NCBI GenBank assembly: GCA_002708905.1
Contig: PAPM01000023.1
Coordinates: 124,001 to 188,000, forward strand
Source of the DNA: Pseudomonadales bacterium
GTDB taxonomy: Bacteria > Pseudomonadota > Gammaproteobacteria > Pseudomonadales > Ketobacteraceae
Length of the DNA stretch: 64,000 nucleotides
Reading direction: 5' to 3'
In this document: in pieces, positions 23,021-40,069 of the stretch
Layout: each line of letters starts with the position of its first letter
Numbering within the stretch: the first letter of the stretch is position 1
Notes under the pieces: generated by a model
The model's database searches: none
What the model was told of the DNA's origin: nothing
The model's input: only the letters and a program-made list of their open reading frames with translations
Position numbers and translations under genes: made by a program

Positions 23021-23860
23021 ATCAAATCCGAAATATTGCAGTTGTCATCTATCAAACCCTTTGCAAAGCCTGCAGGTTTGCCCCTCTGCATTCTAATCCC
23101 AAAGCCAGAGCGGATCTGTAACCGTCTGTATAAGGTACGCAGCCCGATAACTTATCTCTTCCCGCGCCCCTCATGCCAGCCGTAACATAATCACCCACAA
23201 AATCTTCCCAAAGGCTCTTGACATACAAAAAACGACAAGTTCGAAACCGAAACTACTTACCAGGCATCAACATTTGGCCCAAAAATGTAAATTAATTTTG
23301 CGAATCCCTTCATAAACAACAAAAAAGCAGAAATTAGACGTTGACCCATTTCGTCTCCTTTTGATACATTTTTCCGAAATGAACCACCGGTCACAACCAT
23401 ATAAAAAGTTCGAAAATGTTCAGTAAAGCGCGGACTACAATTAATTACTTTCCAAAACGCGCATTTTACTTATAATTTTATCCATCGATCTGGTGGGCAA
23501 AATTTGTCTGCAAGAAAAATTACATACTAAAAAATAAACATCTGCGCCGAGCCGCCCCCTTCATTGAAGGGCAAAAAAAAGCGGATCTGTTGCACCTGAT
23601 CGTAACGAGAACGAAACCTGCGGACAGGAGCAGCCCAGTGCAGATGCCAAACACCAGGGGACGTGAAACAGCGTATCCCCGACTTGAGTGCTTTTATTGC
23701 CACCATCACAAGTGGCTATGTATCGACCACGCCGTAGAGCAGACAGACGCTGACACTTTGGTATTCAAAGTTTGTGCCTAACCGTCAGCCGCCTGTGACC
23801 TGCTACCACTGAAACACCTATTGCGGCGTTCTACGCCGGGATTCGACTTGGTTGATATAT
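23021..23860. other. 840-base intergenic region upstream of the megasynthase gene
   Basis: No convincing gene. The stretch 23220-23570 is visibly AT-rich compared with the flanks. It holds a TATAAT at 23471-23476 with only a weak -35, a TTGACA at 23218-23223 without a good -10, and the 10-mer AAGTTCGAAA twice (23237-23246 and 23406-23415). A short inverted repeat CCTTCATTGAAGG sits near 23560, followed by an A-run. It separates the divergent protease gene from the lipid cluster and probably holds that cluster's promoter and control sites; none can be assigned firmly. Confidence 0.55.
23237..23415. repeat. Repeated 10-mer AAGTTCGAAA
   Basis: Identical copies at 23237-23246 and 23406-23415, each centred on the palindrome TTCGAA, 169 bases apart in the AT-rich control region. 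They may be binding sites for a regulator, but the short length makes chance possible. Confidence 0.35.
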
Positions 23861-26800
23861 ATGTTGCACAACTTCGCTCAATTCAAAAATATTGGAAACT
23901 GGCTGGAGTACTGGGCCGACCACACGCCTAATAAAGTGGCATTCCATTTCCTGGGAGAAAAGGACGGTGACATCGAGTCCGTTTCCTTCAGAGAATTACA
24001 GGAGCGAACACAGACCGTCGCGTTAGCGCTGTTGCAACATGCTCAACCTGGCGACCGGGCTGTTCTCACCTATCATCCCGGGATCGAGTTTTTCGTGGCG
24101 TTTCTGGGCTGCATTCAGGCCGGTTTGATCGCTGTTCCTGTCTATCCGCCCACAGCTCCCAAACACTGGTCCCGTTTCGCTAAGATTGTGATGAATTGCG
24201 AAGCAAGCGTGATTTGCGCTACCCGTAACCTGGCCCAACAGGTGCAGGCCGCAATCGAAACGACCGGGGAGCTGGCCCAGATAAGAGTGCTGGAAACGGA
24301 CAGCCTGTCAGGCACAGTGCAGGGCTATGTGGAATGCACTGCGAATCGGGACGCCATTGCTTTTCTGCAGTACACCTCAGGCTCCACCGGCGATCCGAAA
24401 GGGGTCATCCTCACCCACGGCAACGTCTACCACAACGAATGCCTGATCACCGAAGCCATGGAATGTGATGCGGACAGCGTAGCCGTGTGCTGGTTGCCGC
24501 AATATCACGACATGGGACTGATCGGCAACCTGCTGGGAAGCCTGTTCAATGGCGTAACGGCCGTATTGATGTCGCCCCTGAGTTTCCTGAAAAGCCCGTA
24601 TCGCTGGTTGAAAGCGATCAGCGATTACCAGGCCACTCACAGCGGTGGGCCAAATTTTGCCTACGAACAGTGCGTCGAGCGCATCAGCGAAAACCGTTTG
24701 GAAAGCCTCGACCTCAGCCGCTGGCGGGTGGCCTACAATGGCGCCGAACCCATCCGCGCCAACACGCTGGAACGCTTTCACAACAAATTCTCGCGCTGTG
24801 GCTTCCGTTCCAGCTCCGCCAAGCCGCTTTATGGCCTGGCGGAAAGCACATTGCTGGTCACCCACCACCCCTGCCAGACGCCGGTAAACCTGCTGACGGT
24901 GGATAATGAAAGCCTGCAATCGGGCCTCCCCCTGATTACCGGCGCTGACCAACAGAGCGCAACGCCGGATAACAGCCAGAGCAAGACTCAGAGTAAGACC
25001 CAGAGCAAAACACTGGTGTCCAGCGGACGACCGATCCACCAAACCGTCAAAATTGTGAACCCGCAAACCCTGACCCAATGCAATGAGAATCAGGTAGGCG
25101 AAATATGGGTGATGGGTGACAGTGTTGCCCAGGGCTATTGGAAGAATCCGCAAGCAACAGCAGACACATTCCAGGCCTTCACCAGCGATTCCAGGGAAGG
25201 CCCCTTTATGCGCACGGGGGACCTGGGATTCTTGAACGGCGGCAACCTGTACATCAGCGGTCGCCTGAAAGAAATGATGATTGTGGATGGCCGCAATCTC
25301 TACCCACAGGATATTGAGGAAAGCATCCAAGCCATCAGCCCTTTGTTCAGGGTCGGCTGCGGCGCGGTTTTCAGCCTGGAAGACGAATCCGTTATCGCCG
25401 TACAGGAAGTGGCACGGCGCGGCATCAAGGATGAAGGGGCGCTGGCCAAGCTGGTGCAAGCCGCCATGATGGAAGTGAACGAACAACATCAATTGGCGCT
25501 GAAGAAACTGATTCTCATTGAACAGGGCAGCTTGCTGAAAACCTCCAGCGGTAAAATACGCCGTGGCGCTATGGCAAAACTCTACCAGGAAGATCAACTG
25601 AGTGTCGTAACCGCCTTCACGCCAAAAGATTTCATCAAGCTTAACGCGGCGCCCGCTGCTTCAAACCCCAGGCAATCCCGGTCACACTATGAAGCCATCC
25701 TCCAGCAATTGGTGGCCGATGAACTGGGCATCAATCCCCAGGACATAAATCCACAAACCGCCTTCTCGGAGTTTGGTCTGGAATCGAAAAAACTGGTGGG
25801 ACTGGTCGGCAGCCTGGAACAGAAAATCGACCAGCAGCTGCCGGCGCAACTGTTTTTTGATTATCCCAGCATCAGCAAACTGGCCGCCTATTTAAGTGCA
25901 GACCTGTTAAGCGCAGACCTGTTAAGTGCAGACGTGGAATCGTCTTCACCGGAGACCAACGATACTGGAAAGGCACAACCGTGCGGGGATATTGCCATCG
26001 TCGGCATTGGCTGTCGTTTCCCCGGGCAGTCAGATTCCGCAGATGCTTTCTGGCAGCTATTGATAGACGGCAAAGATGCGATCACGGAAACCCCGGCCTC
26101 GCGCTGGAATAACCGCGACTTTTACGATCCTGACATCCTCGCCCCGGGCAAGATGATAACCAAATGGGGAGGCTATCTGCACCGGGTAAAAGACTTTGAC
26201 GCTGCCTTCTTCGGTATCAAAGACAAAGAAGCAACACTCCTGGACCCACAACAAAGGTTATTGCTCGAAACCAGCTGGCACGCGCTGGAACACGCGGGTA
26301 TCCCGGCCACCAGCACCGGCGGCAAATCGGTCGGTGTGTTCGTAGGCATATCCAACGTTGATTATCAACGGCACTGCAGTCGCTTGGGTGCCAGCAGTGA
26401 GCCCTACTCTGGTACCGGCATGGCCGCCTCAATTGCCGCCAACCGTCTTTCTTATTTCTATGACTGGCACGGACCCAGTGTCGCGGTGGACACTGCCTGC
26501 TCATCCTCTCTGGTGGCACTGCACCAGGCTTGCCGGAGCCTGCAACAACAGGAATGCGAAGTGGCATTGGCGGCCGGAGTGAATCTTATTCTGTCTCCGG
26601 ATCTGAATATCACATTTTCCAAGAGCGGTATGATGGCACCGGATGGCCGCTGCAAAACATTCGATGACAGTGCCGATGGTTACGTGCGCTCGGAGGGATG
26701 CGGTGTGGTTGTACTGAAGCCACTGCAGCAGGCACAGCAGCAGGGTGACAATATCATCGCAGTGATAAAGGGCTCCGCCATTACCCAGGATGGCCGCTCC

Positions 26801-29800
26801 AATGGCATTACGGCGCCCAACGGCCCGGCCCAGGTGCAGACCATTGAGCGCGCGCTCAACAACGGCGGACTTAAGCCGGCAGATGTGCAATATGTAGAGT
26901 GTCATGGTACCGGCACCGCCCTGGGCGATCCCATTGAGCTGAGCGCCCTCTCACAAGCCTATGGTTCAGGTCGAAGCACACCATTGATTGTCGGTTCGGT
27001 GAAAACCAACATCGGTCACCTGGAATCCGCTGCCGGCATAGCCGGTGTTATAAAAGCTGCGCTCTGTTTGAAGAAGCAAATGCTACCTCGCAGTTTGCAT
27101 TGCCACACACCGAACACCCGTTTTGACTGGAAGCGACATGCGATCAAAGTCGCAGACGATAACAGTCCCTGGCTGGTACCAGCAGGAACAGTGCGGCGCG
27201 CGGGCGTGAGTTCATTCGGATTTGGTGGCACCAATGCCCATATCATTCTGGAAGAAGCACCCGCTCACAGTGAAAGCGCCGACCAACCAAGTGCCGTCAT
27301 ACCATCTCACCTGTTTTGTCTGTCGGCCAAAGATCGCAGCGCATTGCAGGCGTTAATCAATCGCTACCTGCGTTTCCTGCCCCGAGCCAACCGGCCGCTG
27401 AGCGAACTGTGCATCGATCAGAACTGCAGCCGCTCCCACTTCGACGAACGTTTGGTGTTGAGATGCAGCAGCACTGAGGAATTACAGGAAAGCCTGCGCT
27501 CCATCAACTGGGCCAACCTGGAGAAAAACGTATTCTCCAGCCGCCGTCGTAAAAGCCAGTCCACACCGCATGTGACCTGGATGTTCACCGGACAGGGGTC
27601 ACAGTACCCCGGCATGGGCCGGGAACTTTATCAGTACAACACTGCATTCAGGCATACGATTGATCAGTGCCATGACCTGTTGCAGCATTATGCCAACATA
27701 GATCTGAAGCGCTTTATATTGAATGAAAGCGACGGAGACGTTTCCGAACTGATTTATCGCACCGATTATGGTCAGCCCGTGCTGTTTTGCTATGAATATG
27801 CTCTGGCTCAACTGATGCTGAATGCCGGCATTCGACCGGACACCTTGATCGGACACAGCCTGGGAGAAATCGTCGCCGCCACAGTGGCAGGTGTATTCAG
27901 CCTTGAAGATGGTATCCGTGTCGCCAGCGAGCGGGGAAGGTTGATGCAGGCTTTGGAGATACCCGGCACCATGATGGCGGTATTTGCTCACAAAGAAGAT
28001 GTGCTGCCACTCCTCAGCAACTATCCATTGGTTTCCATCGGTGCCTTGAATGGTCCGGGTCAAATTGTTCTCTCAGGCTGCTCAGTAAGTTTGCAGGCGC
28101 TGCAAACGCAGCTGGAAGAGCGTGATATCGGCACCCGTACCCTGACAGTGTCGCACGGTTTCCATTCTCCATTGATGAAGCCCATGCTGGAAGAGTTTCG
28201 CCGCCTGCTCACCAGCTTGAAATTGAACACACCGAACTATCGCCTGGTATCCAACACAACTGCCAAAGAAGCGCATGCTGAATTGGCGACCGCCGACTAT
28301 TGGTGCCAGCATGTACTGGCCACGGTCGATTTCCAAGGTGGGTTACAACAAGTGGCGGGCGACCAGAACGCTATTTTGATCGAACTTGGACCCAAACCTA
28401 TTCTAAGCGCGATCGCACAACGTAGCCTGAACCGGGATAGTGCCCGCATCATTCCATTGATAGGCGATCATCAGCAGGAATACACAAGTTTCCTGGATGG
28501 CATTGCCCAATGCTATACCTCTGGGCTGAACATACATTGGCAACTGTTTTTAGGTATTGAGTCCTATGCAAAGCAGGACCTGCCACTCTATCCATTCCAG
28601 CGCAAATATTTCTGGCTGAACGATGCCGCGCCCAGCCAGGTCACACCACCGACTACGCAAAAAGAGCATGCCTTCCATTCCCTGCTGGGCCGACGTCAGC
28701 ACTCTCCCCACCTCAAGAACGGTGAGTTGCATTACGTTACCTATCCCGGACTGGAATCCGCGAACTGGGTCAGCAACCTGGAGCGTCCGGCCCGAATTCA
28801 TTTCCACCTTGGGCATTTTATTGAAATGGCCATGGAAGTGGGAAATGAGGCATTCCAAACCAGCAAGCTCACCTTGCAGAATCTGGAACTGCACAGACGT
28901 ATGAATGCTCCCTACGGTAGCGATAACAGCATCCACACCATTGCGGAACGACGTGCCAACAATGCGTTGAAAGTGGATTTCTATACACTGGATAAAGAAG
29001 TGGAGGTGGGGGATCAGTGGGTGCTGATCTGCTCGGTGGGCATTACGCCTACTAAAACCGGCAAGACCTATGGTGGGCGCAGCTACGACCTGGATAAGAA
29101 GGTGCCCAACCCGTCGAGCGAGGACGTGTCCCAGTTTTTCAGTGCGGCAACGGCCGCTCAGTCCCTTTACTCCACCAAAGACAAAAACATAGTGCGCTCC
29201 GCCAACATGCAGGATGACTTACTGATATGTGACGTGGACTTCTCCGAACTGGTAGCCAATAGCACAGGACAGCAATGGCTTAAGCCTGAAGTCATTCAAG
29301 GCCTGTATCAATTAATGGGATTGTACTGCGAATCGTTACGGCACAATGATCAGATTCGTCCCGGTGTTGAATACATTCCCTACAGCGCACGCAGCATCGT
29401 CTGGACCGAGCACCTTCCGGCCCAAAGCAACATAGTAATAAGCCATAAGGATTCCTGGTCAGAAGACACTGAGCATACGGAACTGGACCTGGCGATCTTT
29501 GACAAGCAGGGTGTTTGCACACTGAAGATTGAGGGCATGCTCTTACGCTCACGGGCACTGGCGGGCAAAACCCTGGCAGAAAGAGTGCGTGAAGTCAGCA
29601 TGGAAGAGCGAACCGTCCTGATCAGCGCCCTGATTACGGAAAGCCTCGCCTCCAGTTTAGGGGGGCAACCCATGGATATTAACTTGTCTCACTCCCTGGC
29701 TGAACTGGGTGTCGACTCCATTACCGCAATCTCAACGCTTTCCCGCCTGAAAAACGAACTCAACCTGGACATCAAAGCCAGTGAGATCAATCGAGCCCGC

Positions 29801-31495
29801 TCCATCGATGAGTTCGCCACGCAACTGGCAGCGAAACTGACACCGAGCGAAGCGCAACAGGAATCAACAACTGAGGTACGGGGCAGCTGCGCCATTCTGC
29901 GGGCCGGTCATCCCGGCGTGCTGCCGCTGTTTTTCATCCATTCGGGGAACGAGGGCCTGCTTCAGTATCTGGATCTGGCCAATGCTTTCGGTGAAGACAT
30001 TCCTTTGCTCGCCATGTTGCCGGAGCTGACGGACAACGGCCGTGTCCGCAATCTTGATGATGTTGTTGAACTGCTGATCAGTGATATCCGCAAAGAACAA
30101 CCCCACGGCCCTTATATGCTTGCCGGTTGGTCACTGGGTGCCACCATGGCTGTTTTGGTAGCCAACAAGCTGGTCCGGAGCGGAGAAGAAATCAAGTTTG
30201 TGGCGGTCGTTGATGCACCCTGTATTCTGGGGAGTAACATTAGCGCCCAGACACTTCAGTACTGTATAGAGCAAACCAGCTCAGACCCGGCCTCCATGGA
30301 CCCCATCAGTCTGCAGCGATACAAATCGGATCTGTTTGAACTCTACGCCCAAACCCTGAAAGTCAAACAGCCCCAGCTGAGCTATGAGCTTCGACACTTC
30401 CAGACCGGACCCACCGGCAGCAACCTGATTGCCAATACTTCGGCCGGTGAGTGGGCCAACCTCTCCAGTCGCAAACTACATTCCAAAACCATTCCCGGGG
30501 ATCATCTCAGTCTTTTCAAATCAGGCAATGTTGAGACGCTGGCATCTTTCCTTCGTAAACTGGTGAGAAATTGTGGTGCCGCAGAAAACCGTTTCCGTAG
30601 GAAATCCCTGGAAAGCGTCAATTTGACCCAATCCGTACTGAAAGGTGTTCCCGAACTCAACGCAGACAAGCGGCCTTGTGCGACGTTACAAGTCAACGAG
30701 GAACATCCCTATTTCTTTGATCACGAATTGGATCATATTCCCGGCATTCTGATTCTGGCCGGAGCCTGGGAACTGGTATGCCGTTCCACCTTTGAATGTG
30801 ACCCGCTTAACCCGCTGATCTGCCGCAGTGTCAGTCATTATTCATTGCAGTTCGATCAGTTTGCGGAAAAGAATCGGGATCTTCATTACGAACTGCACTT
30901 CACCGGAGGCAACGCCTACCGACAGCAGATTGAATGTCTGGTCAGTCAGAGCGGAAAAGACATCGGCAGACTCTATCTAACCCTGGATTACCAGAACCGG
31001 AAGCCAATCAGCCTGTTACCTGGAAAGCGAGACACATTGCGTGAAAGCTTTAACCTGCTACATAAGCAGATTGAAGCCAACGTGTTGATCGATCAACCGG
31101 AGCACACAGAAACCTGTTGGATCTGCCACCCCCAGGCTCCAGAACCCGGCCATTATCTCAGTAACACCACACTGGCCTATGGCTGCCTGAATCCAATTTA
31201 CATTCTTGAGTCATCCAGGCAGTTCCTGACCTATCTGTCCCATCAACAATTCGGTGTCGCCCTTGGCACTCATGTAAATCTGATTGAAGTGACGCTGGAA
31301 TTCGAGGACACCGTCGATTTCAAGGATGTGCTGCAAATGGTGGTCCAACCACACGCAGACAGAGTGGAACAGGATGCATTCCAAACCATCACTGTAGCCT
31401 GGAAGCAGAAGGGACGCACGATTGTCCGCAGCCAGATTACCGCCCAGGTCACACGTCTGGAAACCTATATTCAACAAAGATCTCACAAACTTTAA
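23861..31495 (+). CDS. Type I PKS megasynthase FAAL-ACP-KS-AT-DH(inactive)-ACP-TE-AfsA-like
   Basis: 2544 residues from ATG 23861 (a TTG three codons earlier is possible). FAAL 1-590, with LQYTSGSTGDPKG near 169-181, makes an acyl-AMP from a fatty acid. ACP1 attaches at Ser642 (GLESKK). KS about 710-1140 has Cys880 (DTACSSS), HGTGT and NIGHLESAAG. AT about 1235-1550 has Ser1333 (GHSLGE) and HGFHS, closer to malonyl-type motifs. A DH fold (1600-1890) lacks its catalytic residues: WVSNLERPAR from Trp1636 replaces the WLxDH region and the HPxxxD site reads LKPEVIQ. No KR or ER. ACP2 at Ser1953 (GVDSI). TE about 2020-2260, Ser2091 (GWSLG) and a late GDH. The C-terminal ~275 residues are two hot-dog folds like AfsA. 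Tandem DNA repeats make two linkers. Confidence 0.88.
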   Translation: MLHNFAQFKNIGNWLEYWADHTPNKVAFHFLGEKDGDIESVSFRELQERTQTVALALLQHAQPGDRAVLTYHPGIEFFVAFLGCIQAGLIAVPVYPPTAPKHWSRFAKIVMNCEASVICATRNLAQQVQAAIETTGELAQIRVLETDSLSGTVQGYVECTANRDAIAFLQYTSGSTGDPKGVILTHGNVYHNECLITEAMECDADSVAVCWLPQYHDMGLIGNLLGSLFNGVTAVLMSPLSFLKSPYRWLKAISDYQATHSGGPNFAYEQCVERISENRLESLDLSRWRVAYNGAEPIRANTLERFHNKFSRCGFRSSSAKPLYGLAESTLLVTHHPCQTPVNLLTVDNESLQSGLPLITGADQQSATPDNSQSKTQSKTQSKTLVSSGRPIHQTVKIVNPQTLTQCNENQVGEIWVMGDSVAQGYWKNPQATADTFQAFTSDSREGPFMRTGDLGFLNGGNLYISGRLKEMMIVDGRNLYPQDIEESIQAISPLFRVGCGAVFSLEDESVIAVQEVARRGIKDEGALAKLVQAAMMEVNEQHQLALKKLILIEQGSLLKTSSGKIRRGAMAKLYQEDQLSVVTAFTPKDFIKLNAAPAASNPRQSRSHYEAILQQLVADELGINPQDINPQTAFSEFGLESKKLVGLVGSLEQKIDQQLPAQLFFDYPSISKLAAYLSADLLSADLLSADVESSSPETNDTGKAQPCGDIAIVGIGCRFPGQSDSADAFWQLLIDGKDAITETPASRWNNRDFYDPDILAPGKMITKWGGYLHRVKDFDAAFFGIKDKEATLLDPQQRLLLETSWHALEHAGIPATSTGGKSVGVFVGISNVDYQRHCSRLGASSEPYSGTGMAASIAANRLSYFYDWHGPSVAVDTACSSSLVALHQACRSLQQQECEVALAAGVNLILSPDLNITFSKSGMMAPDGRCKTFDDSADGYVRSEGCGVVVLKPLQQAQQQGDNIIAVIKGSAITQDGRSNGITAPNGPAQVQTIERALNNGGLKPADVQYVECHGTGTALGDPIELSALSQAYGSGRSTPLIVGSVKTNIGHLESAAGIAGVIKAALCLKKQMLPRSLHCHTPNTRFDWKRHAIKVADDNSPWLVPAGTVRRAGVSSFGFGGTNAHIILEEAPAHSESADQPSAVIPSHLFCLSAKDRSALQALINRYLRFLPRANRPLSELCIDQNCSRSHFDERLVLRCSSTEELQESLRSINWANLEKNVFSSRRRKSQSTPHVTWMFTGQGSQYPGMGRELYQYNTAFRHTIDQCHDLLQHYANIDLKRFILNESDGDVSELIYRTDYGQPVLFCYEYALAQLMLNAGIRPDTLIGHSLGEIVAATVAGVFSLEDGIRVASERGRLMQALEIPGTMMAVFAHKEDVLPLLSNYPLVSIGALNGPGQIVLSGCSVSLQALQTQLEERDIGTRTLTVSHGFHSPLMKPMLEEFRRLLTSLKLNTPNYRLVSNTTAKEAHAELATADYWCQHVLATVDFQGGLQQVAGDQNAILIELGPKPILSAIAQRSLNRDSARIIPLIGDHQQEYTSFLDGIAQCYTSGLNIHWQLFLGIESYAKQDLPLYPFQRKYFWLNDAAPSQVTPPTTQKEHAFHSLLGRRQHSPHLKNGELHYVTYPGLESANWVSNLERPARIHFHLGHFIEMAMEVGNEAFQTSKLTLQNLELHRRMNAPYGSDNSIHTIAERRANNALKVDFYTLDKEVEVGDQWVLICSVGITPTKTGKTYGGRSYDLDKKVPNPSSEDVSQFFSAATAAQSLYSTKDKNIVRSANMQDDLLICDVDFSELVANSTGQQWLKPEVIQGLYQLMGLYCESLRHNDQIRPGVEYIPYSARSIVWTEHLPAQSNIVISHKDSWSEDTEHTELDLAIFDKQGVCTLKIEGMLLRSRALAGKTLAERVREVSMEERTVLISALITESLASSLGGQPMDINLSHSLAELGVDSITAISTLSRLKNELNLDIKASEINRARSIDEFATQLAAKLTPSEAQQESTTEVRGSCAILRAGHPGVLPLFFIHSGNEGLLQYLDLANAFGEDIPLLAMLPELTDNGRVRNLDDVVELLISDIRKEQPHGPYMLAGWSLGATMAVLVANKLVRSGEEIKFVAVVDAPCILGSNISAQTLQYCIEQTSSDPASMDPISLQRYKSDLFELYAQTLKVKQPQLSYELRHFQTGPTGSNLIANTSAGEWANLSSRKLHSKTIPGDHLSLFKSGNVETLASFLRKLVRNCGAAENRFRRKSLESVNLTQSVLKGVPELNADKRPCATLQVNEEHPYFFDHELDHIPGILILAGAWELVCRSTFECDPLNPLICRSVSHYSLQFDQFAEKNRDLHYELHFTGGNAYRQQIECLVSQSGKDIGRLYLTLDYQNRKPISLLPGKRDTLRESFNLLHKQIEANVLIDQPEHTETCWICHPQAPEPGHYLSNTTLAYGCLNPIYILESSRQFLTYLSHQQFGVALGTHVNLIEVTLEFEDTVDFKDVLQMVVQPHADRVEQDAFQTITVAWKQKGRTIVRSQITAQVTRLETYIQQRSHKL
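24977..25012 (+). repeat. 12-bp tandem repeat in the FAAL domain
   Basis: Three copies of a 12-bp unit (CAGAGCAAGACT and variants) encode QSKT three times in a surface loop of the FAAL domain. In-frame, so length change would keep the protein intact. Confidence 0.85.
25892..25936 (+). repeat. 15-bp tandem repeat in the ACP1-KS linker
   Basis: Three near-identical copies of TTAAGTGCAGACCTG encode LSADL repeats between ACP1 and the KS domain of the megasynthase. An in-frame linker repeat that could expand or contract by slippage. Confidence 0.85.
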
Positions 31496-31506
31496 GGCGC
31501 TATACC

Positions 31507-32169
31507 ATGAATGATTCAACACAGTCTGACTTTAGAAATCGCGTTCCGCTCTATACAATGCTGGGAGCCATTGTCATCTTTACTCATATTGCCACGTTAA
31601 AACTTCAACACTGGGAAGGTGCGATGTGGTTAAGTGGGTGGGTTGCCGCTATCGGCTATATTATCTGGCTGATATCAGAAGCCAACGTTTCCATTACTGA
31701 ATCAGGCAAGGGCGAGACCCAAAAGGATCGCGGCACCTGCGAACTCTATGTTTTGGGGCGTATTCTCACCGTATTCAGTGCCATCATCCTGGGCACTCAA
31801 TGGCAGGAATTCAACTTCACCATGCTGCTCGGGCTGGTCTTGTTCGCCGGCGGCATTGCGTTTCGCCTGAACGCCATTGACACACTTGGAAAATTCTACT
31901 CCCACCGAGTGCGTCTGATTGATGAACACAGCGTGGTGGACACCGGCCCCTACCAGTGGGTTCGTCATCCAGCCTATACCGGCATGTTAATCGCCCATCT
32001 TGGCTTTGTGCTGGTTTTCTTCAATCTGTATGCCTTCTTGGCCTGGCTGTTGATTTTGCTGCCGGCCATCGTGAAGCGGATCAAAGTGGAAGAAACGGCA
32101 CTGCATGAACTGCCCGGCTACACTCAGTACGCCAACAGCCACAAACGTTTGATACCCGGTGTTTGGTAA
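31507..32169 (+). CDS. Isoprenylcysteine carboxyl methyltransferase-like membrane methyltransferase
   Basis: 220 residues with about five membrane helices. The C-terminal half has the ICMT/phospholipid-methyltransferase motif: VDTGPYQWVRHPAYTGMLI, then RIKVEETALHELPGYTQYAN (the EE...Y region), which binds S-adenosylmethionine. Relatives methylate carboxyl, amine or hydroxyl groups of lipids at the membrane. It begins 11 bases after the megasynthase stop and its stop overlaps the next start, so it probably methylates an intermediate or product of this cluster. The substrate is not readable from sequence. Confidence 0.85.
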   Translation: MNDSTQSDFRNRVPLYTMLGAIVIFTHIATLKLQHWEGAMWLSGWVAAIGYIIWLISEANVSITESGKGETQKDRGTCELYVLGRILTVFSAIILGTQWQEFNFTMLLGLVLFAGGIAFRLNAIDTLGKFYSHRVRLIDEHSVVDTGPYQWVRHPAYTGMLIAHLGFVLVFFNLYAFLAWLLILLPAIVKRIKVEETALHELPGYTQYANSHKRLIPGVW

Positions 32170-33155
32170 TGTCGGGCAGCAGTTCAACACTTACTATTGT
32201 TGTCATCGGCGCCAATGGTTACAGCGGCCGCGCACTGTTGCGCCTGGCCGCCCACCAGCCGGCAACCTATAGTATTCGAGCGCAGGTTCGCGAGCCCGGC
32301 ACCGTGCTTGATGCGGATAACATCCGCACATTTACAGGCAGCCTGGAGCAGATCAATCCAGAATTGTTCCCAGATGAACCCCATATTCTGGTGCATATGG
32401 CTGGCAAGAATATTGATCATGATGGAACCGGCTTTGAGCGGGTTAATATTCACGGCACTGAGAACCTGCTGGCCCACTGCAACCAACACACCCTTGGCAT
32501 TCTGTACCACAGCTCCCTTTCCGTCCTGGGACAAAATCATCAGCGTAATGTTTCCAATCAGCAAACGCCGTCGCCGAAGACCGATCTGGCGCGCTCCCGT
32601 GCCGGCGCCGAACAACGGGTGTTGGACTTCGCCATGAAGCATAACAAGTCTGCCTATTGCTTGCGACCACGGTTTATCCTGGGTAAAGAAGATGCCTTTG
32701 TCATACCAGCCCTGATAAAGCTGGTACAAAAGGGGCTGTACATCGGCGATGGCCAACAGCAGTTTTCCGTCATTGATGTCGACGACTATGCCCTACTGAT
32801 TCTGGAACTCTGCCACCGCCTTTATACCTGTGCTGAGCCCGAGCGTTTGGCGTTGAACGTGGGTTACCAAAAGCCGTTGTCATTTTCCCACATGTATGAG
32901 GCCCTCCAGACCCTGGACCCAAGTGCCCACATCAAACGGCGAATTACGCACCCTGGCGCTCTGGCCACCTCATTCAACTGGCTGCCGGTGAAAAAGCTCC
33001 GCTCTCTCGCCACCCAACTTCAACTGATTGGACTGGATCATTACAGCGACGTCAGCGAAACCCGCAAGCGTTTACGCAGCGATATATTGAACCGCGACAG
33101 TTTCGACTATTTCCGCGAACTCGCCCAACATTTCAAGGATTCATCATGCAACTGA
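32169..33155 (+). CDS. NAD(P)-dependent epimerase/dehydratase family protein
   Basis: 328 residues from the ATG at 32169, which overlaps the previous stop (TAATG). The N-terminal Rossmann motif VVIGANGYSGRALL binds NAD(P). Further family features are the VHMAGKNIDHDG region and YHSSLSVLGQNH, where the usual SxxxYxxxK catalytic set is only partly evident, so the activity could be reduction or epimerisation of a sugar-like or lactone-like group. It is an extended SDR by length and layout. In the cluster it is the only candidate oxidoreductase besides the hydroxylase, and could reduce a butenolide or keto intermediate, which is speculation. Confidence 0.8.
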   Translation: MSGSSSTLTIVVIGANGYSGRALLRLAAHQPATYSIRAQVREPGTVLDADNIRTFTGSLEQINPELFPDEPHILVHMAGKNIDHDGTGFERVNIHGTENLLAHCNQHTLGILYHSSLSVLGQNHQRNVSNQQTPSPKTDLARSRAGAEQRVLDFAMKHNKSAYCLRPRFILGKEDAFVIPALIKLVQKGLYIGDGQQQFSVIDVDDYALLILELCHRLYTCAEPERLALNVGYQKPLSFSHMYEALQTLDPSAHIKRRITHPGALATSFNWLPVKKLRSLATQLQLIGLDHYSDVSETRKRLRSDILNRDSFDYFRELAQHFKDSSCN

Positions 33156-35881
33156 CCATCGACTATCGACACCAGCCATCAGAACAACAAGTTGGCGGTA
33201 AGTTTGCCAAACAGGCGGACTTGATTGCCGCTGGACTGCCTGTACCGAAATTCGTCTGCCTGACCAAGGATTTTTATGCTGCCGTAACCGAACCACTGCA
33301 GGACCCGTTGCGCGCCATTCTGGAGGCCATCGATTTCGAAAAGCACAGCAGCATTCTGCAAGGTTCAGAGGCGGCACAACAGTTGATTGCCAATCTGAGC
33401 TTAAGCAGTGAACAGCAGAACACAATTCTGGCGGGTTTCGACACATTGTTCAGCATGGACACTCTGGTCTCTGTACGCGCTTCCACAGTGGGTCACAAGT
33501 TGGAGGAAAGCGAGGACTCCGTCAGCAACCCGTTTGCAGGTATGAGCGAATCCTTTCTGTATGTACGCCGTGATCAGATACTGCAACGGGTGCGACAGTG
33601 CTGGGCCTCCGGCTTTTCCCAGGAGTCCCTGATTTATCGTCATCAACAACACATGGATCTGATGGGGTTCAGTGTGGCAGTAGGGATTCAGGAAATGGTG
33701 TTCGGTGAGCGCTCCTTTGTGATGTTCACCGCCGATCCAAAAACCGCAGCATCGGACAAAATCATCATTGCCGGACACGGTATTGGTGAAGGGGTGGTAC
33801 AGGAAAAGGTCGCCGTGGATCACTACTTTATTAGCGGCAAAAACGGATTAATCAACCATACCATTGCCGACAAACCCACCCAGCTGGTATTCGATGCGCA
33901 AGCCGGCTATGGGTTGACCGAAGCACCTGTACCGCCGGAACGGCAAAACGAAGCCTGTCTCACCGATGCTGAAATCCAGCAACTGATTGCAGCCGGCAGC
34001 AAAGTGGAGTCCCTCTATGGTCTGCCCCAGGACATCGAGGGTACGTTTACCTCTGACGGAAAATTCTATCTGCTCCAGACGCGGCCCATTGCACTGGATT
34101 TCAATCGTCAGCTGGTATGGAGCAATACCAACGTAACGGAGAGTTACCCCGGCATCAGCAGCACGCTGACCTTTACCCACGCCAAGTATTTCTATCGGGT
34201 TATCTTTCGCGATCTCTACAAGCGCCTGAGTGTGGGCAACGAAGAAATCTGGAACAACTACCAACCTTTGGACAACATGATTGGCTATCTGAATGGCCGC
34301 ATCTATTACTGCCTGTCCCATTTCTATTTGTTGCACAAACAAAGCCCTTTATTCCCCCTGTTCGCTTCTCACTGGGAAAACATGATCGGCCTGCGTTCCT
34401 CATTCCACACCCAGGAACCCCGCACCCTGAAAGCACTGTTGAAAAAGGGCTGGGAATGGGCTCGCTTTGGCAAAGCCTTTGTGCTGACGCTGTTCGATTA
34501 TCTGGGTCATGACCGCGCCATGTATAACTACCATCGTTGGTGGGAGAACCGCATCGCCCCTATGCGCGGTCAATCATTTACCGGAGAGGACCCCCTGACT
34601 CTGGTTAATCGCTTTTATGAGATATGGACCGAAGTAGGCCGTCACTGGGGTGTTACCCTGACCACCGATGCGTACCTGATTCCGCTGTACGGCTGGACTG
34701 AGGCCCTGTTCAACAAGTGGGAGTTGAATCGTGAAGACCCGGGCCTCCTCTCAGACCTGCTGTGTGGAGACGAGCAATTACTCAGCGTTGAGATAATTCT
34801 GTCAGCGGTCAACCTCGCCGAACAGGTTCGGGCCGACGACAAATTGAAAGAACGTTTTAGCCAGTCTGATGAACATGAGTTGTGGCAGGCGCTGGACAAC
34901 AACGAGCTGGACCCCGCTTTTACTGCGAGTGTGCGCAAGCATCTGCACTTGTACGGCGATCGTGGTTTGCAGGAACTGAAAGTGGAACAGCCCAGCCTGC
35001 GTGATACGCCCTGGGTCCTAATGAAGATGATCCGCCAATACGCGGCCCAGGATGTCACCGTTGCCAGTTACCGCCAACATGAACTGGACGTGCGCAAAGG
35101 CGCCGACCAAAAGCTGGCGTCCCTGCTGGCCGGTCAACCCTGGAAATTCAAACTGCTGAACGATGTTATTTTGCCGCGGCTGCGCCGCCTGATTCGGCAT
35201 CGGGAAAATTCCCGTTATTGCCGCAGCGAATTGTTTGGCTTCAGCAAACAGATATTCAAAGCCCTGGCAGATTATTTAGTACAACGGGGTGTGTTGCGCG
35301 AGACCGGCGACATCGTGCATCTCTCTCAGGATGAAATCTTCGGCTATATCAACGGCATGGGCGTTACTGAAAACCTCCAGGCATTGGCAGACTTGCGGCG
35401 TGGTGAGTTCGAGCAATTCAATGCAGCCGAACCGGCAGAACAGATCACCACCCTGGGGGCCGTTAGAGATAACGATCTATGTCCGATGGAACTGCCAGAC
35501 CTCTCAGGCAACGCCCTGGTAGGCCTGGGATCATCCGCCGGGAAGGTACGGGGCATCGCCCGTGTCGTCCATGATCCCAACACCGTGGACACCACCGGCG
35601 AGAACATGATCCTGATTGCCCGGGAAACCGATCCCGGCTGGTTGTTCCTGATGCTGGCCTCAAAGGGTATGGTGGTGGAACGGGGCAGCATGCTGTCACA
35701 CACCGCCATCACCGGGCGTAAGTTCGGTATTCCCACGATTGTGGCTTTACCCAACGCCACCAAGCTGATTCCCGATGGCGCCCTGATTGAAATCGATGGC
35801 TCCTCCGGCGTGGTCACCATTGTGGATGAATCTGCAAGCACCAGCGAGGCTGAGGATAAAGACAACGGGGCCGCAGCATGA
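33146..35881 (+). CDS. PEP synthase/rifampin phosphotransferase-like phosphotransferase
   Basis: 911 residues. The N-terminal ~325 residues are a PPDK_N ATP-grasp domain: GGKFAKQADLIAAGLPVPKF, SVRASTVGHKLEESEDSVSNPF, MFTADPKT, GIGEGVVQEK and LPQDIEGTF...LLQTRPI. The central part (about 330-790) is of uncertain fold, in the place of the acceptor-binding domain of rifampin phosphotransferase. The C-terminal swivelling domain has the phospho-His852 in GSMLSHTAITGRKFGIPTIV. There is no PEP-synthase C-terminal TIM barrel, so it should transfer phosphate from ATP via His to a small-molecule acceptor rather than make PEP. The acceptor is probably a cluster metabolite. It overlaps both neighbours. 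Confidence 0.85.
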   Translation: MQLTIDYRHQPSEQQVGGKFAKQADLIAAGLPVPKFVCLTKDFYAAVTEPLQDPLRAILEAIDFEKHSSILQGSEAAQQLIANLSLSSEQQNTILAGFDTLFSMDTLVSVRASTVGHKLEESEDSVSNPFAGMSESFLYVRRDQILQRVRQCWASGFSQESLIYRHQQHMDLMGFSVAVGIQEMVFGERSFVMFTADPKTAASDKIIIAGHGIGEGVVQEKVAVDHYFISGKNGLINHTIADKPTQLVFDAQAGYGLTEAPVPPERQNEACLTDAEIQQLIAAGSKVESLYGLPQDIEGTFTSDGKFYLLQTRPIALDFNRQLVWSNTNVTESYPGISSTLTFTHAKYFYRVIFRDLYKRLSVGNEEIWNNYQPLDNMIGYLNGRIYYCLSHFYLLHKQSPLFPLFASHWENMIGLRSSFHTQEPRTLKALLKKGWEWARFGKAFVLTLFDYLGHDRAMYNYHRWWENRIAPMRGQSFTGEDPLTLVNRFYEIWTEVGRHWGVTLTTDAYLIPLYGWTEALFNKWELNREDPGLLSDLLCGDEQLLSVEIILSAVNLAEQVRADDKLKERFSQSDEHELWQALDNNELDPAFTASVRKHLHLYGDRGLQELKVEQPSLRDTPWVLMKMIRQYAAQDVTVASYRQHELDVRKGADQKLASLLAGQPWKFKLLNDVILPRLRRLIRHRENSRYCRSELFGFSKQIFKALADYLVQRGVLRETGDIVHLSQDEIFGYINGMGVTENLQALADLRRGEFEQFNAAEPAEQITTLGAVRDNDLCPMELPDLSGNALVGLGSSAGKVRGIARVVHDPNTVDTTGENMILIARETDPGWLFLMLASKGMVVERGSMLSHTAITGRKFGIPTIVALPNATKLIPDGALIEIDGSSGVVTIVDESASTSEAEDKDNGAAA

Positions 35882-36834
35882 AGCAGGCGCAACTCCGTAA
35901 CTATTGGCAACGTCTGAATGCGTTTGCCGAAATCATCTATGAACCCAAACAGCATTTTCTGTTTGCCGCCCTGTGGTTTCTCTCAATCCAGGGTTTGTTC
36001 ATACTGAAGAGCCCGGTCGATACCTGGCAGTGGGGCCTGTCCACCCTCATATCCGCCGGCAGCTTTTTTGGCGTATTGTTTGTATTGCGGGCCATTGATG
36101 AAGTGAAAGACCTGGAATATGACCGTCAATACAATCCGGATCGCCCGGTGGTGTCCGGTGTGGTGGGTCTGGGGGATATTCGTTCCTATGTGCTGTTGGG
36201 CACGTTGATCATTGCCCTGGCCAATATCCTGATCGCCTGGCAATTGGCGTTGTTTGTAATCGTGAACGTAGGCTACGGTCTGCTGTTAATGTGGCTTGAG
36301 AAAAAGATTCCTTTGATGGACCGCAGCATGTTCTTCAATTTGCTGCTGACCTATCCCGTCAGTATTGCCCTCAGTTTTTACACGTTGGTGCAGATTAGCT
36401 TTACCCAGCAGGTCGACGTGGCCTGGTGCCTGCTGCCGATTATCGGCTGCTACATTCTGGCTTTCCTGCATTTCGAAATCATCCGCAAGAGCATGTGGGA
36501 ACCGCTGGCGGATCCTGGAGAAAAGCTTTACTCCAATGAGATCGGCTGCAGTAAAGCAGTGTTGCTGGGCACACTGTGCGGCGTGCTGGCCATCAGCGGC
36601 ATCGTAGTACTGAATCAGCCCTGGCAACAAACCGGCGCAGCTGCCCTCACCGGCTGGTTGCCGCTGCTGGGGTGTGTATGGATTGGATTGAGTGTGAAAC
36701 TGTTTCTCACCCAACGCAGCCAGCGCTTTAACCCGAGAAAATACTCAGTGCCCTTTATCGTTACTTTTTATGGGTTGAACCTGGTGCACGCGTTAACTGC
36801 AAATCACCATCACTTTACCTGGTTGGGGAATTAA
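35878..36834 (+). CDS. UbiA-like membrane prenyltransferase family protein
   Basis: 318 residues, about eight or nine membrane helices. The first aspartate-rich motif is clear: RAIDEVKDLEYDRQYNPDRP, as in UbiA-family prenyltransferases (DxxDxxxD). The usual second motif is replaced by HFEIIRKSMWEP...EKLYSNEIG, so metal-diphosphate binding may differ and the donor may not be a standard prenyl diphosphate. It would transfer a hydrophobic chain to an acceptor ring or head group in the membrane. The ATG overlaps the previous stop (ATGA). The next start follows without a gap. Confidence 0.78.
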   Translation: MKQAQLRNYWQRLNAFAEIIYEPKQHFLFAALWFLSIQGLFILKSPVDTWQWGLSTLISAGSFFGVLFVLRAIDEVKDLEYDRQYNPDRPVVSGVVGLGDIRSYVLLGTLIIALANILIAWQLALFVIVNVGYGLLLMWLEKKIPLMDRSMFFNLLLTYPVSIALSFYTLVQISFTQQVDVAWCLLPIIGCYILAFLHFEIIRKSMWEPLADPGEKLYSNEIGCSKAVLLGTLCGVLAISGIVVLNQPWQQTGAAALTGWLPLLGCVWIGLSVKLFLTQRSQRFNPRKYSVPFIVTFYGLNLVHALTANHHHFTWLGN

Positions 36835-39150
36835 ATGAGTACTCTCGAAGACTGGACCCGCCTTCCTGTCCATCGCCCGTGGCTGGTCTTAGCGTTGTGC
36901 CTGTTGATCACAGCTGCCTGCGGCCTGGGCACCAGCCGCTACCACAACACATTGGACTTCCGTTTCTTTTTCAGTGGCGACAATCCCCAGCTGCAAGCCT
37001 ATGAGCAATTGCAATCCACCTACGGCTCTGAAGAATTCGTATTTGTGGCCATCGCCACCCGGGATGGCAGCGACCTGTTTACGGAAACCAACCTCCAGGC
37101 CCTGGCCTCCCTCACCGAGCAGGCCTGGCAAACGCCCTATTCCATTCGGGTGGACTCGCTGACAAACTTCCCCTACACCGTCGTCAGCGAAGACGATTTT
37201 GTGGTGGAGGATTTATACAATACAGACGCCGCCCTTGACTCAACAGACCTGCAAACCCGCAAGCAATTTGCGTTGCAGGAGCCTGCCACCATTAATGCTT
37301 TGATTTCTGAAGACAGCAGCGTCGCAGGCATGCGCATCCTGATCAAACTACCGGGCATCGATCGCGCCGTTGAAACACCCAAAGTGGTGTTTTTTATTCG
37401 GGACATGGTGGCCAAATTTGAACGGGATCATCCCCAATTCAAGACCTATCTTTCCGGACAAATTGTCGTGGACCAGGCCTTTCCGGAATCTACTGAAGCC
37501 GATATGGGATTTGTCTGGCCCGCCTTTTTTGTGGTGATGCTGGTGCTACTGGGCTTTATCTTCCGCAGCCTAGCGTTTGTGCTGTTCACCGTCTTAACCG
37601 CCATCTGCTCGATAGCCACCGGCATGGGTTTGCTGGGGTGGACCGGAATGAAAATCAATGCCGCCGTCACCGTCGCACCCATCATGATCCTGACACTGGC
37701 CATTGCCGACAGCGTCCACATCCTGACCCGCTACCGCTTGCTGCGACAACAAGGGCAGAACAAACAGGAGGCGCTGCACACCAGTTTGCAACAGAATGCG
37801 TTGCCGGTGTTGCTGACTTCACTGTTCACCGCAGCGGGCTTTCTTACCTTGCATTTCAATGATTCACCTCCCTACCAAGCCCTGGGTTATATTGTGTGCG
37901 CCGGGGTCATCGCGGCCTGGCTCTATTCCATGCTTTTGCTGCCTGCCATGGTGATGCTCATTCCCCATAAGATTCGCGCGCTGGAAAAAGCGTCTGCAAC
38001 CCTACCCATGGCACGATGGGCGGACTGGGTCATACAACACCAAAAGGCTCTGTTCTTTGGTGGCCTGGTTGTCATCATGGCAGGCTTGATGTGCCTTCCG
38101 CTGAATCGTATCAACGACGATCCGGTAAAGTATTTCGGCAGTCAACAAACCATGCGACAGCATATGGAGTTTGTGAATAACCGCATCACCGGCTTGGGGG
38201 CACTCAACTATTCTATTCCGGTACAGCAGGGAGAGAAGCTCACCAGCCCCAGTTATCTGCAGCGCCTGGATAACTTCAGCCAATGGCTGGCCCAGCAAAC
38301 AGACGTAGTGCATGTAGATTCCATGGCGGACATCATCAAGCGCCTGAATCAGTCCTGGCACAACGACGATCCAGCCTTCTACCGCATACCGGATGATGAA
38401 GAAGCCATTGCGCAATTACTGTTGCTCTACGAAATGTCGCTGCCCTTCGGTGGCGACCTCAGCACCATGATTTCCCGTCAGCACAACGCCTCCCGCGTGC
38501 GGGTAACCATGGACAACACGGCAGGGGATTATCATATCCAACTGGATCAACAAGCTTGGGTCTGGCTCGACAAACACAGCACAGTCACAAGCGACATTGT
38601 CTCCGCCAGCGCACCACTGATGTTTGCCCACATCGGTGATCGCAGCATGAAAGGCATTTTGGTGGGCCTGATCGGTTCCCTGTTTATCATGGGCATCGTG
38701 CTGGCCCGTTTGTTCCGTTCCACCAAACTGGGATTGATCAGCATCGTTTGCAACGTGGTGCCGGTGGCGCTGGCATTTGGCGTGTGGGGCCTGTTAAACG
38801 GCAATATCGATGTGGGCCTGAGTGTCACCCTGGGAATTGCCTTCGGCATTGTGGTGGATGACACCATTCACTTTCTCGGCAAATATCGGCATGCCCGCCA
38901 GACGCTGGCCATGGACAGTGAAGCCGCCGTACGCTTTGCCTTCGCCCGGGTTGGCCCAGCCATTGTGATAACCTCGGTGATCCTGATAGCCGGGTTTGCC
39001 ATGCTGGGTTTTTCCGCCATGAACATCACCGCCAACACCTCCATATTGACTACCGTTACCATCGCCATCGCGCTGGCGGTGGACCTGTTGTTTATACCGG
39101 CTCTTTTACTTCAGTTTGATCGTGCTCCCAGGGAGACTACACATGGATAA
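36835..39150 (+). CDS. MMPL/RND family lipid exporter
   Basis: 771 residues with the two-fold repeat of an RND/MMPL transporter: one N-terminal helix, a large periplasmic domain, then five helices, repeated. The core helices include APIMILTLAIADSVHILTRYR and GIAFGIVVDDTIHFLGKYR, where the Asp residues probably carry the proton path. MMPL proteins export lipids and lipid-linked metabolites. Its position within this operon suggests that the product of the megasynthase pathway is exported to the periplasm or outer membrane. It starts directly after the UbiA-like stop. Confidence 0.88.
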   Translation: MSTLEDWTRLPVHRPWLVLALCLLITAACGLGTSRYHNTLDFRFFFSGDNPQLQAYEQLQSTYGSEEFVFVAIATRDGSDLFTETNLQALASLTEQAWQTPYSIRVDSLTNFPYTVVSEDDFVVEDLYNTDAALDSTDLQTRKQFALQEPATINALISEDSSVAGMRILIKLPGIDRAVETPKVVFFIRDMVAKFERDHPQFKTYLSGQIVVDQAFPESTEADMGFVWPAFFVVMLVLLGFIFRSLAFVLFTVLTAICSIATGMGLLGWTGMKINAAVTVAPIMILTLAIADSVHILTRYRLLRQQGQNKQEALHTSLQQNALPVLLTSLFTAAGFLTLHFNDSPPYQALGYIVCAGVIAAWLYSMLLLPAMVMLIPHKIRALEKASATLPMARWADWVIQHQKALFFGGLVVIMAGLMCLPLNRINDDPVKYFGSQQTMRQHMEFVNNRITGLGALNYSIPVQQGEKLTSPSYLQRLDNFSQWLAQQTDVVHVDSMADIIKRLNQSWHNDDPAFYRIPDDEEAIAQLLLLYEMSLPFGGDLSTMISRQHNASRVRVTMDNTAGDYHIQLDQQAWVWLDKHSTVTSDIVSASAPLMFAHIGDRSMKGILVGLIGSLFIMGIVLARLFRSTKLGLISIVCNVVPVALAFGVWGLLNGNIDVGLSVTLGIAFGIVVDDTIHFLGKYRHARQTLAMDSEAAVRFAFARVGPAIVITSVILIAGFAMLGFSAMNITANTSILTTVTIAIALAVDLLFIPALLLQFDRAPRETTHG

Positions 39151-40069
39151 CGTCAAAGCATTACCCCACACAAGCACGCGCTCATTGCCGGCCGTTGCAT
39201 TCGAATGGCTGTTTTTTCCAGTGCTGTCCATCAGCGCAATCTATGCCACCGCTCAGTATCTGTATTCCGATCAGGTGGAACTGGCAACGCTGATCATTTC
39301 CACGTCGGTGTTACTGATCACCATGCTGTTCGAGCGCATTCATCCGCTTAATCCGCAATGGAATCAGTACCGGGGTGACCTGGGCCCGGATTTCAGTTCC
39401 CTCGTTCTGGTGGGCGTATTTATGGAAGGCGCCTTGAAGCGGATGGGGCCGCTGATTGCACTTTACCTGTTCCTGGCAATGGGCCTGCCGCAAAATTACC
39501 GATTGATTCCCGATAGCACACCACTGTGGGCGGAAACCATTCTGGTGCTGCTGATTATTGAACTTGCCAAGTACGGATTCCACCGATTAGGCCATGAACA
39601 TCCCAAGTGGTGGCCCTTGCATTCCGTGCATCACAGCGTCAAGCGCATGCACTTGCTTAATGGATTCCGTATCCATCCGCTCTATCATTTCTGCACCTTC
39701 CTGCTGGGTGTAGTGCCCTGCTACCTGATCGGTGCCAGTGCGGAAGCCTTGATTCTCAACAGCGTGATTCTGGCCATTGGCGGCTCCATTCAGCACTGCA
39801 ACATCAAGCTGCGCTATGGCTGGCTGAACTATATTTTCAACACCAACGAACTGCACCGCTGGCACCATTCCAAAAACATCAGCGAAGGCAACACCAACTA
39901 TGGTGCCGTATTGATTGTGTACGATGTACTGTTCGGCACCCACTACTACCGCCCGGATGCGAGCCCCGTGGAATTGGGTATCAGCAATGAAGAGCATTAC
40001 CCGATGAACAATTACTGGAAGCAGTTGCTGATTCCGTTTCGCTGGAAATCCCAGATACTGGACAAGTAA
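39143..40069 (+). CDS. Fatty acid hydroxylase / sterol desaturase family protein
   Basis: 308 residues from the ATG at 39143, overlapping the exporter stop by 8 bases. Several N-terminal membrane helices are followed by the three histidine boxes of the membrane di-iron family: HRLGH (HxxxH), HSVHH (HxxHH) and HRWHH (HxxHH), plus HP and HH residues between. Members hydroxylate or desaturate lipid chains or sterols using O2. Here it is likely to hydroxylate an acyl chain in the cluster lipid. The multiheme cytochrome gene begins 62 bases later. Confidence 0.88.
   Translation: MDNVKALPHTSTRSLPAVAFEWLFFPVLSISAIYATAQYLYSDQVELATLIISTSVLLITMLFERIHPLNPQWNQYRGDLGPDFSSLVLVGVFMEGALKRMGPLIALYLFLAMGLPQNYRLIPDSTPLWAETILVLLIIELAKYGFHRLGHEHPKWWPLHSVHHSVKRMHLLNGFRIHPLYHFCTFLLGVVPCYLIGASAEALILNSVILAIGGSIQHCNIKLRYGWLNYIFNTNELHRWHHSKNISEGNTNYGAVLIVYDVLFGTHYYRPDASPVELGISNEEHYPMNNYWKQLLIPFRWKSQILDK

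Follow-up and report, generated by a model that had tools for sequence, protein, structure and literature searches.

Seven tightly packed, co-directional genes from a genome of the Ketobacteraceae (Pseudomonadales) constitute a genuine unit, which on balance probably makes and exports a long-chain lipid of the A-factor type by way of a butenolide phosphate. The genes (g1 to g7) occupy positions 23852-40069 on the plus strand of the window, i.e. the whole stretch of 64,000 nucleotides that was analysed. The packing with overlaps or gaps of at most 11 bases, as proposed in the initial annotation, agrees with the open reading frame list of the window, all junctions being overlaps or zero gaps apart from a single gap of 11 bases. 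Pfam and NCBIfam likewise agree with the gene families proposed for g2-g4, g6 and g7. The megasynthase gene g1 (23861-31495; the frame is open from a TTG at 23852, with an ATG at 23861) is followed by genes for an ICMT/PEMT-type membrane methyltransferase (g2, 31507-32169), an extended, epimerase/dehydratase-like SDR (g3, 32163-33155), a protein resembling PEP synthase and rifampin phosphotransferase (g4, 33146-35881), a UbiA-like membrane protein (g5, 35878-36834), an MMPL/HAE3-type RND exporter (g6, 36835-39150) and an OlsE-like fatty acid hydroxylase (g7, 39116-40069, an alternative start being possible at ATG 39143). Between 23021 and 40200, a scan counts 8 promoter-like and 21 terminator-like sites, shuffled sequence averaging 12.9 (sd 4.1) and 16.1 (sd 3.8) respectively, and for this reason no regulation is claimed for the cluster.

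The set is not a chance arrangement, since all seven genes were read in four genomes (the window's own, two congeners and one of another genus), and g2-g7 together with g1 from residue 714 onward in a named Ketobacter record, L020. The search for the same gene order suggested in the initial annotation thus found it in G126 and G066, while in G151 the hydroxylase gene is divergent and upstream. The L020 piece begins inside g1, and may come from the same genome as G1554, where g5 alone was searched. Matches to g5 were obtained in five of 194 genomes of the order at E 0.001 (the window's own included, and one very weak), and at E 1e-10 in five of 15 genomes of the family, with four of six within the genus. 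In all three cluster-free genomes examined, out of ten family genomes without a g5 match, the flanking protease and NA37 genes have matches separated by 2.0-2.6 kb, which implies insertion or loss of the unit at that place; in G126 NA37 is about 30 kb from the unit, which counts against a fixed site. The upstream acyl-CoA carboxylase, protease and DUF3014 genes were excluded from the unit, as the congener L078 carries them without the cluster. In one congener, about 3.5 kb separate the megasynthase gene from the upstream protease gene (L010, 4737-8301). Just downstream of the unit a cytochrome/HEAT/TPR protein is encoded (40132-42351), which is present in L020 and gave no match in L007, L009 and L081.

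The initial annotation of g1 as a FAAL-primed polyketide synthase with an AfsA-like end agrees with its Pfam/NCBIfam families (in Pfam: AMP-binding, two PP-binding, KS, AT, TE and AfsA) and its PDB relatives, and the domain order is FAAL, ACP, KS, AT, DH-like, ACP, TE, AfsA. Among PDB entries, the first domain is closest to 7r7g, named a polyketide synthase, to saframycin Mx1 synthetase B, and to acyl-AMP ligases such as FadD23, FadD32 and FadD28. Motifs of KS, AT and TE were located by pattern scan and the ACP serines by eye; the AT carries the stretch SHGFH, which we take to suggest malonyl. The domain segments of g1 are also present in L007/L008 and L009/L010, from KS onward in L020, and, at the threshold used, all except the second ACP in L011. 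FAAL-primed type I polyketide synthases are exemplified by olefin synthase and the FadD/Pks13 systems. Their FAAL-ACP-KS-AT start is shared by g1, which differs from them in having no KR, a probably inactive DH-like domain, and a TE followed by AfsA.

The stretch between AT and the second ACP (28658-29626), absent from the initial annotation, is weakly similar to two dehydratases, CurK and CurF (best E values 0.00035 and 0.0091). In five of five aligned sequences the presumed catalytic His is replaced by Leu or Phe and the presumed catalytic Asp by Gln or Glu, both positions being our assignment. The domain is probably inactive, a judgement that leans on this assignment, since the CurK PDB chain also has Phe at the presumed His place and its alignment ends ahead of the presumed Asp. 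Since Pfam finds no KR in g1 and these DH residues are replaced, the chain on the second ACP should be beta-keto. The FAAL, the lack of KR and the DH replacements thereby support the fatty-acid-primed, once-extended beta-keto lipid first proposed.

Preceding AfsA is a thioesterase domain (29924-30559; Pfam, and GWSLG by motif scan), which the initial annotation also lacked. Its place does not fit readily with the best explanation and counts against it. An intact-looking GWSLG motif in this position, together with the missing KR and a divergent AfsA, would suit direct release of the beta-keto lipid by the TE, the AfsA-like end having some other role and the product being a tailored beta-keto acid or ketone devoid of a lactone ring. 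Such a release is nevertheless unlikely, given that both AfsA halves are conserved in the window protein and the four relatives scored, and that in two Streptomyces a free-standing AfsA is accompanied by homologues of the four genes after g1.

The AfsA end itself (30644-31474) is a double hotdog whose halves are swapped, the C-type half (30644-30979) preceding the N-type half (31055-31474). Both hotdogs were recognised by PF03756, with two matches in the g1 frame of 42.8 bits and 24 bits (the latter over 27 positions, just at the cut-off), and by half-specific models trained on six loci, L034-L039. The customary order is N then C, as in L034-L039. The C-type half comes first in all eight of the window protein, L007, L009, L020, L011, L023, L024 and L082; in the first seven of these the C model scores 39-58 bits on the first half and the N model 17-37 bits on the second, where the C model also reaches up to 13 bits. 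The N-first order occurs in 13 actinobacterial loci, i.e. the six used for model building and seven of seven independent ones (L084-L088, L090, L091). Of the six actinobacterial loci of the ICMT type, three (L025, L083 and L089) gave only a C-type half above 20 bits, which counts against the best explanation. Identity of the g1 AfsA is 60-66% in three congeners, 35% over the aligned part in G151 and 22-24% to two Streptomyces AfsA proteins; with this low similarity across phyla and the swapped halves, AfsA function is not assured. Swapped AfsA was found in none of 311 other gammaproteobacterial genomes drawn (E 1e-12), a search in which the known positive congeners were also missing among the matches.

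A named-genome scan showed that in S. scopuliridis and S. diastatochromogenes genes for AfsA, ICMT, SDR, a PPDK-like protein and a UbiA-like protein are contiguous and in the window's order, at 22-41% identity to the window proteins. This shared block makes A-factor-type butenolide/butyrolactone chemistry the best reading, and a long-chain butenolide or butyrolactone lipid of that type the likeliest product. The tailored, exported lipid of the initial annotation is plausible, and the shared block gives it this more particular direction. The Streptomyces operon is like the window in the five ordered steps and in the swapped AfsA halves, and unlike it in that no match above 25 bits to FAAL, KS-AT, MMPL or hydroxylase was found within 20 kb; an NRPS lies near the operon in L023. 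AfsA, ICMT, a PEP/pyruvate-binding protein and a UbiA-like protein (annotated hypothetical), with no SDR between, are encoded on a plasmid of S. clavuligerus. UbiA-like matches, L023's genome included, were obtained in seven of 396 actinobacterial genomes at E 1e-10 and in 18 of 246 genomes of L023's genus at E 1e-30. All 19 actinobacterial loci read, each of which was chosen via its UbiA-like gene, contain PPDK-like and AfsA genes, and six contain ICMT; in L082 a weak MMPL match (38 bits) lies some 5 kb from AfsA. In 12 of the 19 (L034-L038, L084-L088, L090, L091) the PPDK gene stands several kb before an AfsA-UbiA pair with AfsA in N-C order, a layout, as in L038, which we take to be of the salinipostin type. 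Pfam annotation among these 12 covers L038, with AMP ligase, acyl reductase, NDK-like, AfsA, UbiA and glycosyltransferase, and L036, where one in-between frame is NDK-like. Loci such as L038, taken here for this type, resemble the window in bringing together AfsA, phosphotransferase and UbiA-like genes; L038 differs in its separate AMP ligase, acyl reductase and NDK-like gene, none of which is among the seven, in lacking ICMT, in its AfsA order and in a PPDK on a distant branch. The arrangement PPDK-UbiA-DUF6182-...-AfsA-KAS III in L039 (6355-15710) differs from both main layouts.

The phosphotransferase g4 contains PPDK_N and PEP-utilizers domains in Pfam and aligns across the ATP-grasp and the swivelling His domain with 5hv2, deposited as a phosphoenolpyruvate synthase and, we presume, a rifampin phosphotransferase; it has no PEP/pyruvate C-terminal domain, as befits its PEP-synthase/rifampin-phosphotransferase-like class. 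The UbiA-like identity of g5, claimed in the initial annotation, finds no Pfam match at E 0.001 and is suggested by weak matches and relatives: NCBIfam prenyltransferase PRK13592 gave 58 bits, far under its curated cut-off of 443, archaeal DGGGP synthase aligns over 91 positions with a profile of g5 and six relatives (E 1.8e-5), and Pfam UbiA recognises a distant homologue in L038. All 15 aligned UbiA-like sequences preserve the first Asp motif, RxxD[DE]xxDxxxD. Where we expect the usual second Asp motif, all 15 instead read E-x-x-R-K followed by Y-[S/T/V]-x-x-x-G, so that the two Asp motifs of UbiA prenyltransferases are not both recognisable in g5, a reading made by eye in an alignment without a canonical UbiA. 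The prenylation suggested in the initial annotation is weakened by this altered motif. Were g5 an ordinary UbiA prenyltransferase placing an isoprenoid onto a phosphorylated polyketide lipid, the weak prenyltransferase matches would be accounted for, as would DGGGP synthase being its sole relevant solved relative; the altered motif and the companionship of the UbiA-like gene with a phosphotransferase gene in 19 of 19 actinobacterial loci make this improbable. Trees of the PPDK-like and UbiA-like proteins from 23 of 29 loci are correlated (Mantel r 0.56, reached by none of 5000 permutations), with shared ancestry as a confounder; L034, L035, L084, L040, L043 and L044 were dropped, as a gene was cut or broken.

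In five of five distant gammaproteobacterial loci, read over 8-19 kb, PPDK-like and UbiA-like genes are present and no AfsA was detected, and the steps proposed below for g4 and g5 are for that reason guesses. Neither partner was seen beside a weaker sixth gammaproteobacterial match (G168; L013, L045). L041 (2716-13415) holds a different lipid-like cluster, in which genes for an HMG-CoA reductase carrying a fused kinase-like domain, a CDP-alcohol transferase likewise joined to a CarS-like domain, a formyl transferase and an AMP ligase that includes an alpha/beta hydrolase domain are followed by UbiA-like and PPDK-like genes. The PPDK/UbiA pair is common to L042-L044, and L040 (8770-13970) has four tandem PPDK-like pieces close to a UbiA-like gene, which may represent two enzymes that are split or broken.

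Among the tailoring and export genes, Pfam recognises ICMT/PEMT in g2, epimerase in g3, MMPL in g6 and FA_hydroxylase in g7. The ICMT motifs RHPxYxG and EE of g2 are invariant in four of four aligned sequences, the His clusters of g7 were identified by eye, and the Tyr-x-x-x-Lys of classical SDRs is not recognisable by eye at its usual place in g3 (seven of seven sequences compared).

Known AfsA enzymes act on a beta-ketoacyl thioester and condense it with DHAP. For the present unit we infer every reaction and product from the sequence. The FAAL would adenylate a fatty acid and load it onto the first ACP, KS-AT would add one malonyl unit, and the chain would remain beta-keto on the second ACP for want of a KR and an active DH; the FAAL-PKS, in place of primary metabolism, would thus supply the beta-ketoacyl chain. 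The AfsA end would then condense this chain with a glycerol-type phosphate and, by intramolecular condensation, yield a butenolide phosphate, and would thereby act as an off-loading domain, while the TE may edit or assist. Compared with A-factor synthesis by AfsA, the domain is the same and is here fused to the polyketide synthase that would make its substrate. Subsequently, g4 might phosphorylate the phosphate group or activate it, and g5, with its retained Asp motif of the Mg/diphosphate type, might form a further ester or ring from the activated intermediate, giving a product akin to the phosphate-ester lactones of the cyclophostin/salinipostin kind. Such a phosphate-ester end product is doubtful, and the weakest part of the best explanation. 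Finally, g2 would methylate, g3 would alter the redox state or stereochemistry or dehydrate, g7 would hydroxylate and g6 would export the lipid.

A signalling butyrolactone for gene regulation, as A-factor, concerns the role of the product and is compatible with the best explanation. AfsA chemistry speaks for it, and in Ruegeria pomeroyi killing requires an AfsA cluster, the expression of most of which depends on afsA (PMC7426152). Signalling is rather unlikely here, with no regulator gene among the seven (Pfam), and with a dedicated megasynthase, hydroxylase and MMPL exporter that suggest more than trace amounts.

According to the literature, cyclophostin, cyclipostins and salinipostins are structurally related to A-factor, with a common origin suggested (review, PMC6681047), the spt family alignment in a Salinispora study spans 13,368 bp (PMC8609351), and AfsA-domain proteins occur mostly in gammaproteobacteria and actinobacteria (PMC7426152). 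Chromobacterium also has an AfsA cluster, which, like that of R. pomeroyi, differs from the window's in the partners named in the excerpts (PMC7426152, PMC12114271). A paper cited in PMC12114271 reportedly found butyrolactone cluster homologues across 12 phyla and might already include the window's cluster. The literature search returned nothing joining FAAL, AfsA and polyketide synthase, nor AfsA and UbiA, nor anything on Ketobacter biosynthetic gene clusters. The absence of a described pathway, noted initially, holds for the full seven genes in this search, a weak absence with the primary spt literature outside its scope; it does not extend to the core block, which is related to loci in Streptomyces and, probably, to salinipostin-type clusters.

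New elements are the swapped AfsA halves, the UbiA-like subfamily with an altered second motif and, apparently, a polyketide synthase with in-line AfsA off-loading. That this synthase is off-loaded by the half-swapped AfsA onto glycerol phosphate, with the phosphotransferase/UbiA-like pair leading to a new class of exported phospho-lactone lipids in gammaproteobacteria, is put forward tentatively. If true, it would add a new mode of polyketide chain release, link the butyrolactone chemistry of Streptomyces to a gammaproteobacterial lipid pathway, and give the recurring phosphotransferase/UbiA-like pair a testable role, with a bearing on how natural phosphate triesters are closed.
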